Assembly: GCA_902761055.1 (NCBI GenBank)
Contig: CACWIS010000021.1
Span: 1-32,277, forward strand
Source of the DNA: Oscillospiraceae bacterium
GTDB lineage: Bacteria > Bacillota > Clostridia > Oscillospirales > Oscillospiraceae
Direction: 5' to 3'
Length of the DNA: 32,277 nt
Translations under genes and position numbers: made by a program
The notes under the pieces: generated by a model
The model's input: only the letters and a program-made list of their open reading frames with translations
The model's database searches: none
What the model was told of the DNA's origin: nothing
In this document: positions 9,623-28,757 of the stretch, piece by piece
Position numbering within the stretch: the first letter of the stretch is position 1
How the letters are laid out: every line of letters starts with the position of its first letter

Positions 9623-9689
9623 AGCATAGCACAGCCGCGCGGAAAAATATAATACCTGTCGCATGCGGCCTTTCATACGTTTTTCGTAT
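9623..9689 (-). promoter_or_regulatory. asnB promoter with LysR-type palindrome
   Basis: The palindrome ATACG-N5-CGTAT occupies 9675-9689 (centre 9682). On the minus strand an extended -10, TGC-TATGCT, lies at 9628-9623, exactly 54 bp from the palindrome centre. The -35 position is AT-rich without a TTGACA match. The same arrangement occurs at glnA and upstream of the 20-residue ORF. Also in the gap between asnB and amtB (9322-9871): the T-box leader and the amtB promoter; I see no gene there. Confidence 0.68.
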
Positions 9690-9743
9690 CATAGGACGCG
9701 AACGGGGGTGGACGCGCCGCCATTCGCGGATCGTTCCGTTTCC

Positions 9744-9797
9744 ATAGGAAAGCGGTATCCCGCTTTGCTTGACTTCGCGCCGTCCCTCCGCTATAAT
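9744..9797 (+). promoter_or_regulatory. amtB promoter with degenerate palindrome
   Basis: A near-consensus promoter, TTGACT (9769-9774), 17 bp, TATAAT (9792-9797), drives amtB. Just upstream is ATAGG-N5-GGTAT (9744-9758), a degenerate copy of the ATACG-N5-CGTAT box that keeps the preceding TTTCC seen at the pyrG and glmS copies. The distance to the -10 is 41 bp, unlike the 54 bp at asnB and glnA, so regulation may differ in sign. The transcript has a leader of about 70 bases in which I see no clear structure. Confidence 0.65.
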
Positions 9798-9871
9798 GCG
9801 CGGCATAAACGGACGGCAAAGGCAGGCGCGGCGCGCGGGTCTTTGCTTTTCCCTTTTCGGAGGTGCTTGGG

Positions 9872-11554
9872 ATGAGTATGTCGATCTGGTTTCTTGTCGG
9901 CGCGATCCTGGTGTTTTTCATGCAGTGCGGCTTTGCCATGGTGGAGACCGGCTTCACCCGGGCCAAGAACGCCGGCAACATCATTATGAAAAATCTGATG
10001 GACTTCTGCATCGGGACGGTGATGTTCTTCCTGCTCGGCTACGGGCTGATGATGGGACGGCACGGCGCATACGGTCTGATCGGGCGGCCGGACTGGAGCA
10101 TGCTTTCGGACTTCGCCGGTTTTGACTGGTCCGCTTTTGTGTTTCAGCTCGTGTTCTGCGCCACGGCGGCGACCATCGTCTCCGGCGCGATGGCGGAGCG
10201 GACGCGTTTTTCGGCCTACTGCCTGTATTCGGCGCTGATCAGTCTGCTGATCTACCCGATCGAGGCCGGCTGGGTCTGGGGCGGCGGCTGGCTGAGCCGG
10301 CTGGGCTTCATCGACTTCGCCGGCTCCTGCGTCATCCACATGGTCGGCGGTCTGTCTGCGCTGGTCGGGGCGGTGATCCTCGGCCCGCGGATCGGGAAAT
10401 ATACGAAGGGAAAGGACGGGAAGCTCGTCTCAAACGCGATCCCCGGCCATTCCGTCACGCTCGGCGCGCTGGGCGTGTTCATCCTGTGGTTTGCCTGGTA
10501 CGGCTTCAACGGCGCGGCGGCGGCCGACGCCGGGGAGCTGGCGAGGATCTTCGGCACGACGACGATCGCGCCGGCGCTCGCCACCGTCAGCTGCATGCTG
10601 TTTACCTGGAAAAAGAACGGCAAGCCCGACGTCTCGATGTGTCTCAACGCCTCGCTCGCCGGACTGGTCGCCGTCACGGCGGGCTGCGCCAGCGTCGACG
10701 CGCTCGGCGCGGCCGTCATCGGCATCGTGTCCGGCATCCTGGTTGATCTGGCCGTGGAGCTGCTGGATGTCCGCTTCCATGTGGACGATCCGGTCGGCGC
10801 GGTGGCGGTCCACGGCGTCAACGGGATCTGGGGCACGCTGGCGGTCGGCCTTTTCGCCTGCAACGAGAACTACGGCTCCAGGGGACTGTTCTACGGCGGC
10901 GGGCTGCGCCAGCTCGGCGTACAGTGCCTCGCCGTCGTGACGATCGGCGCTTACACGGTCCTGAGCATGATCCTGATCTTCAAGCTCATCCGGGCGACCG
11001 TCGGGCTGCGGGCCGGCGCGGAGGAGGAGATCGAGGGGCTGGACGTGACCGAACACGGCCTTGCCAGCGCCTATGCGGATTTCCTCCCCATCGAGTCGAC
11101 GCTCGGCATCCGTTCCGACGGGCCGGTCGACACGGAGGGGCTGAGCCCCTTCCCGCTCACGCTGTCCTCCGGGCTGCACGAAACGCCCGTGGGCCGGAAG
11201 CGCTACACGCTCGTGCGCATCCTCTGCGACGCGGATCGTTTCGGGACGCTGCGCGACACGATGGCGAGCATCGGCGTGACCGGAATGACCGTGACGAACG
11301 TGATGGGCTGCGGCACGCAGAAGGGCAAGAGCGGCCAGTACCGCGGCATTGAAATGAGCATGCATCTCACGCCGAAGCTGCAGGTCGATATCGTCGTGTC
11401 CAAGGTCGAGCCCGGGCTTGTCGTCGCGGCGGCCAACGCGGCGCTGCACACCGGCGAGATCGGAGACGGAAAGATCTTCGTCTGCGACGTGGAGGACGTC
11501 GTCCGCATCCGCACGGGCGAATCCGGCTACGACGCGCTGCAGATCGCAGAATGA
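9872..11554 (+). CDS. amtB: Ammonium transporter AmtB fused to a P-II (GlnB) domain
   Basis: Product of 560 residues. Residues 1 to about 385 are an Amt/Mep channel of about eleven membrane helices: MQCGFAMVETGFTRAKNAGN at the front, GWVWGGGWL, FAGSCVIHMVGG (first pore histidine) and DDPVGAVAVHGVNGIWG (second histidine). After a linker, residues about 445-555 are a complete P-II signal protein: TLVRILCDADRF, VTGMTVTNVMGCGTQKG, QYRGIE and GEIGDGKIFV..VEDVVRIRTGE. P-II normally blocks AmtB by inserting its T-loop into the pore, so the fusion tethers the inhibitor. The tyrosine at the E. coli Y51 position is Met. The ATG at 9872 is 8 bases after GGAGG; a GTG at 9863 is inside that ribosome site. 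Confidence 0.94.
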   Translation: MSMSIWFLVGAILVFFMQCGFAMVETGFTRAKNAGNIIMKNLMDFCIGTVMFFLLGYGLMMGRHGAYGLIGRPDWSMLSDFAGFDWSAFVFQLVFCATAATIVSGAMAERTRFSAYCLYSALISLLIYPIEAGWVWGGGWLSRLGFIDFAGSCVIHMVGGLSALVGAVILGPRIGKYTKGKDGKLVSNAIPGHSVTLGALGVFILWFAWYGFNGAAAADAGELARIFGTTTIAPALATVSCMLFTWKKNGKPDVSMCLNASLAGLVAVTAGCASVDALGAAVIGIVSGILVDLAVELLDVRFHVDDPVGAVAVHGVNGIWGTLAVGLFACNENYGSRGLFYGGGLRQLGVQCLAVVTIGAYTVLSMILIFKLIRATVGLRAGAEEEIEGLDVTEHGLASAYADFLPIESTLGIRSDGPVDTEGLSPFPLTLSSGLHETPVGRKRYTLVRILCDADRFGTLRDTMASIGVTGMTVTNVMGCGTQKGKSGQYRGIEMSMHLTPKLQVDIVVSKVEPGLVVAAANAALHTGEIGDGKIFVCDVEDVVRIRTGESGYDALQIAE

Positions 11555-11579
11555 GCTTTTTCGGATCATAGCAAAGAGC

Positions 11580-26982: not shown

Positions 26983-26985
26983 GCT

Positions 26986-28587
26986 CTATTCTTTTCCTTT
27001 CATAGCCGCCGCGATCAGGCCGACGAACAGCGGGTGCGGCCGGTTGGGGCGGCTCTTGAATTCGGGGTGGTACTGCACGCCGATGAAAAAACGCCTGTCC
27101 GTGAGCTCGACCGCCTCGACGATGTGTCCGTCCGGAGACTGCCCGCAGAGGCAGAGCCCCGCGCCGGAGAGCAGCTCGCGGTAGTCGTTGTTGAACTCGT
27201 AGCGATGGCGGTGCCTCTCGGAGATGTTCTCCGTGCCGTAGCATTCGGCCATGCGGCTGCCCGGCTCGATCCGGCAGGGCCAGGCGCCGAGACGCAGCGT
27301 GCCGCCCTTGGAAACAGTATCGCTTTGATCGGGCAAAAAGTCAATGACCTTGTGCGGGGAAGCGGCGTCGAATTCGCCGGAGTCCGCGTCCGCGAGGCCG
27401 CAGACATGGCGCGCGAACTCGATCACGGCCACCTGCATGCCCAGACAGATGCCGAGATACGGGACGTCGTGCTCCCGCGCATACCGGGCCGTGACGATCA
27501 TGCCCGGCACGCCGCGGTCGCCGAAGCCGCCCGGGACGATCAGCCCGTCGCAGCCGGCCAGCGCCGCGGCGACGTTTTCTTCCGTGACCGTCTCGCTGTC
27601 GATCCAGCGGATCTCGACCTTCGCGCCGCACGCATACCCGGCGTGATGCAGCGCCTCTGCCACGGAGAGATAGGCGTCGTGCAGCTGCACGTACTTGCCG
27701 ACGAGCCCGATCGTGACGCTCCCCGAGAGCGTGCGGATGCGCTCGACCATCGCGCGCCACTCTTCAAGCTCCGGCGCGCGGGTCCAGAGCCCCAGCTCGC
27801 GGCAGACGATCAGCGAAAAGTCCTCCCGCTCGAGCATCAGCGGCGCCTCGTAGAGGATGGGCAGCGTGCGGTTTTCGATCACGCAGTCGGGCTTGACGTT
27901 GCAGAACATCGCGATCTTGCGGAAGATCTCCGGCTCGAGCGGCTCGTCGCAGCGCAGCACGATGATGTCCGGCGCGATGCCCATGCCCTGCAGCTCCTTG
28001 ACCGAGTGCTGCGTCGGCTTGGTCTTATGCTCGTCGCTGCCGCGCAGGAAGGGCACGAGCGTCACGTGGATATAGAGCGTGTTCTCCTTGCCCCTCTCGA
28101 GACCGACCTGCCGCGCGGCCTCGAGAAAGGGCTGGCTCTCGATGTCGCCGGTCGTGCCGCCGATCTCGGTGATGATGACGTCCGCGCCGGTCTTTTTTTC
28201 CAGACTGTAGATGAAGTCCTTGATCTCCTGGGTGATGTGCGGGATGACCTGCACGGTCTGGCCGAGGTATTCGCCGCGGCGCTCCTTGTTCAGCACGTTC
28301 CAGTAGACCTTGCCGGTCGTGAGGTTGGAAAACTTGTTGAGGTCCTCGTCGATGAAGCGCTCGTAGTGCCCGAGGTCGAGGTCGGTCTCGCTGCCGTCCT
28401 CGGTCACGTACACCTCGCCGTGCTGATAGGGGCTCATCGTCCCGGGGTCGACGTTGATATAGGGGTCGAGCTTCTGCGCCGCGACCTTCAGCCCGCGGCA
28501 TTTGAGCAGACGGCCCAGCGAGGCCGCCGTGATCCCCTTGCCCAGGCCCGAGACCACGCCGCCGGTCACAAAAATGTATTTTGCCAT
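26986..28587 (-). CDS. pyrG: CTP synthase
   Basis: Makes CTP from UTP, ATP and glutamine. The product is 533 residues. The synthetase domain starts [17 protein letters not shown] and has [21 protein letters not shown] and [14 protein letters not shown]. The glutaminase domain has [24 protein letters not shown] (nucleophile Cys) and [12 protein letters not shown]. The start follows ACGGGAGG. It is first in the pyrG-guaA operon, behind a structured leader and a promoter with a perfect ATACG-N5-CGTAT box. The neighbours suggest control by glutamine or nitrogen status besides any CTP control. Confidence 0.97.
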
Positions 28588-28608
28588 GATCGCATCCTCC
28601 CGTAAAAC

Positions 28609-28665
28609 AAACTGTTCTCCGACGCCTTAAGGGGGCACTTGGCCCCTGGCTCCGGAGAACAGTTT
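28609..28665 (-). promoter_or_regulatory. Structured leader of pyrG, probable attenuator
   Basis: A perfect 13-bp outer stem (28609-28621 with 28653-28665, AAACTGTTCTCCG / CGGAGAACAGTTT) encloses a GGGGC/GCCCC hairpin (28632-28636, 28642-28646). On the minus strand the outer stem is followed by TTTGTTTT and then the pyrG ribosome site, so it looks like an intrinsic terminator in the leader. The inner part is unusually elaborate for a plain terminator. The initial transcribed bases show no run of G, so the known CTP-sensing reiterative mechanism of pyrG is not evident. Confidence 0.65.
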
Positions 28666-28694
28666 TGCAAACGTACGTTATTCAAGACGGGAAA

Positions 28695-28757
28695 AGCATA
28701 CCACGCGCGGCGCCGCGGTGTCAAGGAAGCTCGCGGCTTTCCATACGCCGCGCGTAT
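28695..28757 (-). promoter_or_regulatory. pyrG promoter with perfect palindrome
   Basis: On the minus strand TTGACA (28719-28724), 18 bp, TATGCT (28695-28700, with TGG before it). ATACG-CCGCG-CGTAT (28743-28757, centre 28750) lies 50 bp upstream of the -10, preceded by TTTCC on the plus strand as at the amtB and glmS copies. Unlike asnB and glnA the promoter has a consensus -35. Confidence 0.68.

Follow-up and report, generated by a model that had tools for sequence, protein, structure and literature searches.

A shared palindrome at glutamine and nitrogen genes of an Oscillospiraceae bacterium, very probably the binding site of a neighbouring LysR-type regulator

Contig CACWIS010000021.1 of the Oscillospiraceae bacterium assembly GCA_902761055.1 carries genes for ammonium uptake, glutamine synthesis and glutamine-dependent enzymes together with the gene of a LysR-type transcriptional regulator, and the palindrome ATACG-N5-CGTAT recurs between them. 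The window, that is the whole stretch of DNA analysed, comprises the entire contig (C21) of 32,277 nucleotides; the assembly has a size of 1.89 Mb and is 80.7 % complete. The genes and sites are listed by coordinates and strand. Site scores in bits and distances to predicted starts are explained further below.

6718..7668, minus strand, LysR-type transcriptional regulator of 316 aa (PF00126 with 78 bits and PF03466 with 120 bits, both over the cut-off)
7738..9321, minus strand, asnB, glutamine-dependent asparagine synthase (PF00733, GATase_7)
9363..9607, minus strand, T-box leader of asnB (RF00230, 58.7 bits, E 3.4e-12, under the gathering score of 93)
9675..9689, unstranded, perfect palindrome, putative asnB promoter site in the asnB/amtB intergenic region (22.3 bits, top score of the window; centre about 66 bp before the predicted start)
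9744..9758, unstranded, degenerate amtB site (5.1 bits; centre about 53 bp before the predicted start)
9863..11554, plus strand, amtB, ammonium transporter fused to a P-II domain (PF00909, PF00543)
11591..11605, unstranded, degenerate glmS site (17.3 bits; centre about 72 bp before the predicted start)
11700..13538, plus strand, glmS-type glutamine amidotransferase with SIS domains (Pfam)
13538..13552, unstranded, perfect palindrome, putative glnN promoter site (20.0 bits; centre about 66 bp before the predicted start)
13692..15782, plus strand, glnN, type III glutamine synthetase (PF12437, PF18318, PF00120)
15917..15979, minus strand, gene of a 20-residue micro-peptide, the "tiny transcript" of the original prediction (ORF; the family shows codon-position bias)
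16085..16099, unstranded, degenerate site of the micro-peptide gene (16.2 bits; centre about 66 bp before the predicted start)
25453..26982, minus strand, guaA, GMP synthase (Pfam)
26986..28587, minus strand, pyrG, CTP synthase (Pfam)
28743..28757, unstranded, perfect palindrome with GC-rich spacer, putative pyrG promoter site (4.4 bits; centre about 62 bp before the predicted start)
28766..28780, unstranded, second pyrG box with 3 mismatches, 23 bp upstream of the pyrG palindrome

The regulator gene is located directly downstream of asnB and encodes the top-scoring of six LysR-type helix-turn-helix (HTH) matches in the assembly. In the 25 listed of 54 matched NCBIfam families the protein stayed below the cut-off, e.g., 152.4 bits in the AlsR model with a cut-off of 430 bits. 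Orthologs with at least 57 % identity were present in 28 of 61 genus genomes, four of them as contig-edge fragments only. Among 20 regions hand-chosen around regulator orthologs or around glnN/amtB, 18 held the regulator, and 16 of these 18 also contained at least one of the genes asnB, amtB, glmS, glnN, guaA and pyrG. The best 80 relatives of the regulator were found in Oscillospiraceae and Lachnospiraceae assemblies, many of ruminant origin, and included Pseudoflavonifractor phocaeensis, Flintibacter muris and Colidextribacter. Within the fetched stretch, 27 of the 36 loci L210-L245 and 14 of the 44 loci L246-L289 carried one or more glutamine genes.

Three perfect copies of the palindrome were present in the window, at 9675-9689, 13538-13552 and 28743-28757, exactly as predicted and none within a gene body; the copy at 13538 overlaps the end of the glmS stop codon by its first base. 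The assembly contained four perfect copies, three of them inside the window, and the reversed pattern as control matched once. Many copies inside genes had been named as an argument against a regulatory element; just one of the four, located off the window, lay within a long open reading frame (ORF). The expectation for perfect copies in the window was 0.018 (order 0) or 0.012 (order 1). The palindrome had, however, been selected post hoc, and among 77 perfect 5-N5-5 dyads of any sequence in the window five dyad types reached three copies, thus the raw chance argument of the original prediction was overstated and the count alone is weaker evidence than assumed there. The palindrome itself is real. 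With up to two mismatches, ten matches were obtained in the window versus 8.7 expected, and 39 of 100 shuffled sequences also reached ten, so that the three degenerate copies at 9744, 11591 and 16085 are not significant by mismatch count.

Further evidence came from related genomes. De novo palindromic expectation maximization on 66 upstream regions of relatives, excluding the genome of the window (G000), yielded ATCATAYG-N-WWW-N-CRTATGAT with a log-likelihood of 259, compared to 51-64 in 15 dinucleotide-shuffled sets. This is the working motif; the exact ATACG-N5-CGTAT is too strict. In a scan with the matrix from the other species, the top four sites of the window were those centred at 9682 (asnB), 13545 (glnN), 11598 (glmS) and 16092 (micro-peptide gene) with 16-22 bits, and low scores were obtained at pyrG (28750, 4.4 bits) and amtB (9751, 5.1 bits). 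Sites of at least 15 bits numbered four in the 32-kb window versus two in 320 kb elsewhere in the assembly. The species comparison supports the degenerate copies at glmS and the micro-peptide gene as putative sites through the matrix, and the copy at amtB as a putative half-site only.

The promoters of the regulator genes gave an independent view. At 37 loci of L246-L289, which are mostly distant (43-62 % regulator identity), a separate analysis retrieved the identical motif, with 159 versus 37-55 in ten shuffles. A site of at least 13 bits was located upstream of the regulator at 42 of 76 loci (the 80 relatives minus four with less than 150 bases upstream), versus 16 of 1520 shuffled sequences and 17 of 1165 random segments (about 1 %). 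That the palindromes reflect chance or merely the composition of AT-rich promoters is consequently hard to believe: the five dyad types with three copies, the chance-level degenerate copies and the missing genus-wide enrichment of the exact motif would fit such an origin, but in two separate sets the de novo motif clearly exceeded the shuffles, a matrix trained on other species recovered the window sites, and regulator promoters were matched far above controls. We regard this origin as practically negligible. At the distant loci, sites of at least 15 bits preceded glnN in four of five cases (15-19 bits) and asnB in one of five; none was present upstream of pyrG (0/4), guaA (0/3) or glmS (0/5). 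With sites at glnN and the regulator and none at these three genes, the regulator itself and glnN look like the old core of the putative regulon and the other amidotransferases like a later extension.

Matches to ATCATAY-N7-RTATGAT with at most one mismatch were counted in genomes with and without the regulator. The 28 genus genomes in which it was found had 47 on the forward pattern and 4 on the control, and the 33 genus genomes without it had 25 and 13; in six additional regulator-bearing genomes 14 forward and 4 control matches were counted.

LysR-type regulators use a primary site with a T-N11-A palindrome near position -65, as described in PMC4834489. The site symmetry and the predicted spacing agree with this rule. 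A crude sigma-70 scorer was applied to 40 hand-picked combinations of site and gene, many of them homologous, and all starts are predictions. The distance from the site centre to the predicted start had a median of 66 with quartiles of 65-71 and a range of 34-122. It was 66 for the micro-peptide gene in 11 of 12 cases, 66-71 for glnN (10/11), 61-63 for the near pyrG box (4/4), 72 for glmS (2/2) and 66-85 for the regulator gene (3/3). Outliers were amtB with 53, 109 and 122, asnB of the window with 40, guaA in G015 with 40 and asnB in G053 with 39; for asnB of the window the spacing became 66 once the -10 box beside the T-box start was chosen manually in place of the automatic pick. Poor -35 boxes were predicted for asnB, for glnN and for the micro-peptide gene.

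This geometry bears also on the question whether the palindromes act in RNA, as hairpins of terminators or leader elements, and not as protein sites. They are inverted repeats, the copy at 13538 begins at the glmS stop codon, and genuine leader elements (the T-box, the pyrG hairpin) are nearby. However, the palindromes precede the predicted starts of the genes that follow them, they are kept when the upstream gene differs, and their arms are AT-rich with no T-run following. A function as RNA hairpin is therefore very improbable.

In our view the LysR-type regulator at 6718-7668 very probably uses the palindrome as its primary binding site and would control glutamine and nitrogen genes. The sites, their conservation among species, their linkage with the regulator gene and a repeatedly found distance to predicted promoters are features of the compared genomes, from which we infer a putative binding of these sites by this LysR protein. 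The original prediction had recognised a LysR-type box in the T-N11-A geometry, and this idea gained from the LysR gene adjoining asnB, from orthologs often near glnN, pyrG or asnB, and from sites mostly 61-72 bp before predicted starts. The regulator would recognise ATCATAYG-N-WWW-N-CRTATGAT with the centre about 66 bp upstream of the start, and the second pyrG box, at a distance of two helical turns, would probably be bound in addition. In this genome it would target asnB, glnN, glmS, pyrG-guaA, probably amtB-PII, and the micro-peptide gene; in many relatives the gene of the regulator itself would be included. An activator would fit the position of the sites and the weak -35 boxes predicted for asnB, glnN and the micro-peptide gene, though not the good ones of amtB, glmS and pyrG; it would turn on nitrogen uptake, glutamine synthesis, glutamine-using enzymes and the micro-peptides together. 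The signal is presumably a shortage of glutamine or nitrogen (ammonium).

Several observations weigh against this assignment. The case for the pairing of regulator and site was built from sequence. In the genome of the window, the 72-base gap between the regulator and asnB contained no site, and 34 of the 76 regulators lacked an upstream site of 13 bits. The exact ten-base pattern, proposed for a scan of related genomes, was not enriched: 85 forward and 100 reversed-control matches were counted in 60 genus genomes (summed by hand, with 38 same-order genomes left out of the sum). Only the genome of the window was omitted from the matrix training, and close relatives such as G004 with a 92 % identical regulator were included; likewise, the set L246-L289 contained one near relative, L256 (83 %). 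Sites of at least 12 bits occurred with versus without regulator at glnN in 17 of 20 versus 1 of 9 loci, at amtB in 8 of 9 versus 2 of 10 and at pyrG in 6 of 20 versus 0 of 10, a comparison that is in part circular, since the matrix training had used many of the promoters from genomes with the regulator, and in which most amtB matches were far from the amtB start and probably serve the divergent gene. From this comparison one of 30 glnN loci (L053, 5' truncated) and 11 of 30 amtB loci (L103, L106-L109, L119-L124; partial, contig-edge or second copies) had been dropped. The site-to-start spacing was determined without a control of random positions and on predicted promoters, and the predicted -35 boxes at amtB, glmS and pyrG were good. 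The core pattern with AT spacer had seven exact matches in the own assembly, two in the window and five elsewhere. Ten proteins encoded beside off-cluster matches at eight picked loci of relatives included no glutamine gene; these were a periplasmic binding protein, an ATP-grasp, an MBOAT and an HTH/S24 protein, an isocitrate/isopropylmalate-type dehydrogenase, a deaminase and four proteins without Pfam match. Finally, strong sites were present in the three genomes G060, G041 and G009, in which the regulator was not found.

Sites without a detected LysR ortholog could be explained by another regulator binding the palindrome, e.g., a TetR-type protein like the actinobacterial AmtR, or GlnR, with the LysR gene as a mere neighbour or co-target. 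TetR-type proteins typically use palindromes of such length as well, a LysR gene could belong to a regulon without controlling it, and five other LysR-type HTH genes exist in the same genome. Yet the motif was found in LysR-gene promoters at many loci, even where no glutamine gene was mapped nearby, and the T-N11-A symmetry with a spacing of about 66 is the pattern of LysR proteins. The GlnR/TnrA operator TGTNA-N7-TNACA, as given in PMC9249791, differs from the motif, in line with the original prediction. A CodY regulon was rejected, as PF06018 had no match in the 80.7 % complete assembly and both controls, Bacillus subtilis and Lactococcus lactis, were positive. As judged from the motif, its spacing and the CodY search, with no search aimed at a TetR-type candidate or at GlnR itself, control by a regulator other than the LysR protein is in our opinion unlikely.

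The own assembly may contain additional targets of the LysR-type regulator beyond the window. With one mismatch the AT-spacer pattern was uninformative (127 forward versus 106 control matches). Seven off-window candidates from the AT-spacer list and the matrix scan all overlapped or abutted a mechanical ORF, and L198, L200 and L201 resemble promoter or gene-end sequence by their context. In L201, a minus-strand ORF with its start about 60 bp from a one-mismatch copy of the extended motif (1498-1518, corresponding to G000 C35:6113-6133) is a possible further target. In G012 (L302:1501-1521), an exact extended motif precedes a Peripla_BP_6 gene for a periplasmic binding protein, a possible transport target. 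The second glnN copy of the genome was without a site (0.8 bits).

At individual promoters some features deserve mention. The right-hand GTAT of the amtB site was located 10-11 nt before the -35 box in all ten promoters compared by eye (ten of 30 loci), and on this alignment the site is a conserved putative half-site only. AmtB and the P-II signalling domain are fused in a single frame. For asnB, the presence of a T-box leader plus a palindrome suggests a dual control; the T-box was visible only at a relaxed threshold, as Rfam at gathering thresholds had no match in the window and eight loci. The pyrG boxes were paired at a distance of 22-23 bp in several relatives. The pyrG leader (28587-28700, minus strand; L065-L089) contains a strongly conserved hairpin, AGGGGCCNAGTGCCCCCTTAAGGCATCGGAGAAC (consensus of 17 leaders), followed by a T-run and without an Rfam match at the gathering threshold. 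By eye, an inner stem resembling this hairpin was seen in the glnN leaders of some relatives lacking the LysR regulator (L058, L060). A low-GC island at 16112-25211 (38-48 % versus about 65 %) separates the micro-peptide promoter from guaA and carries integrase, Mob_Pre, NikA-like and acetyltransferase genes; in G004, which lacks the island, the distance from the site centre to the guaA end is 16 bp.

The site at 16085 had been assigned to a tiny transcript; the species comparison backed the site, and the transcript has to be corrected to a gene for a coding-like micro-peptide. Genes of this size are usually skipped by gene callers. A pattern search built on the first peptides and requiring a Shine-Dalgarno-like sequence before the start revealed related ORFs in 24 of 80 loci of relatives. 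They have 17-23 residues and occur in one to four tandem copies, and their start usually follows a motif close to the regulator by 100-250 bp. Among 34 distinct ORFs (108 pairs), differences were distributed as 26/19/55 % over codon positions 1/2/3, and the downstream flanks as control showed 32/33/35 % in only nine comparable pairs. The pN/pS ratio was 0.18 in 67 pairs, a value biased downward by the pre-selection at 70 % protein identity. Three tested micro-peptides had no Pfam match, and a full-text literature search with six peptide strings found no paper. In the window, a GC-rich inverted repeat (15843-15877) was seen by eye after the gene. In Colidextribacter-type genomes, regulator, motif and micro-peptide are followed by a PurF-like amidotransferase with a phosphoribosyltransferase domain (at L263, about 0.95-2.7 kb past the regulator start; similar in L247-L261).

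LysR-type nitrogen regulons are known in principle from NAC and GltC. NAC of enteric bacteria likewise controls nitrogen genes, and its site is of the type ATA-N9-TAT, like the palindrome here; in contrast, the regulator here reached only 84 bits in the NCBIfam NAC model with a cut-off of 309, is clostridial, is encoded near glnN and asnB, and has putative targets including glutamine amidotransferases and micro-peptides. GltC controls glutamate biosynthesis in Firmicutes with gltAB as target, and its model gave 117.5 bits versus a cut-off of 350. The GlnR/TnrA and CodY regulons of Firmicutes have a similar role for glutamine synthetase and nitrogen genes, but belong to other protein families. 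The best solved-structure match of the regulator by sequence was CatM (2h98), and the dyad ATAC-N7-GTAT of BenM/CatM described in PMC6628147 is alike; however, these proteins function in aromatic catabolism, and their models gave 79 and 103 bits versus cut-offs of 600 and 580. In the literature on nitrogen control in these bacteria, no LysR regulon of such content was encountered by title or abstract, with most subscription journals outside the coverage. The suggestion of an undescribed nitrogen regulon is thus supported by the regulator linkage, the motif at 42 of 76 regulator genes and the spacing. New here is a different LysR group with a clostridial target set including a type III glutamine synthetase and a micro-peptide component.

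With the regulator, the motif, the target set and the promoter geometry named, the circuit is directly testable, and a coherent family of micro-peptide genes is exposed under the same motif. The peptides of 17-23 residues might act directly on glutamine synthetase or glutamine-using enzymes, as a core output of the regulon beside the enzymes. Some copies end with ..YYxTFSR, loosely like the C-tail ..SRF of GlnR, which is a resemblance only; a short C-tail of GlnR docks in glutamine synthetase, as described in PMC9249791. A 23-residue protein of Methanosarcina mazei, sP26, has been reported to interact with glutamine synthetase (PMC11957540), and the same study saw no stable sP26 binding under its conditions; this protein is archaeal, and its likeness to the micro-peptides here is one of size. 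Such a direct action is a tentative idea with a rather low probability, but if true, gut Clostridia would possess a novel type of nitrogen control by micro-peptides.

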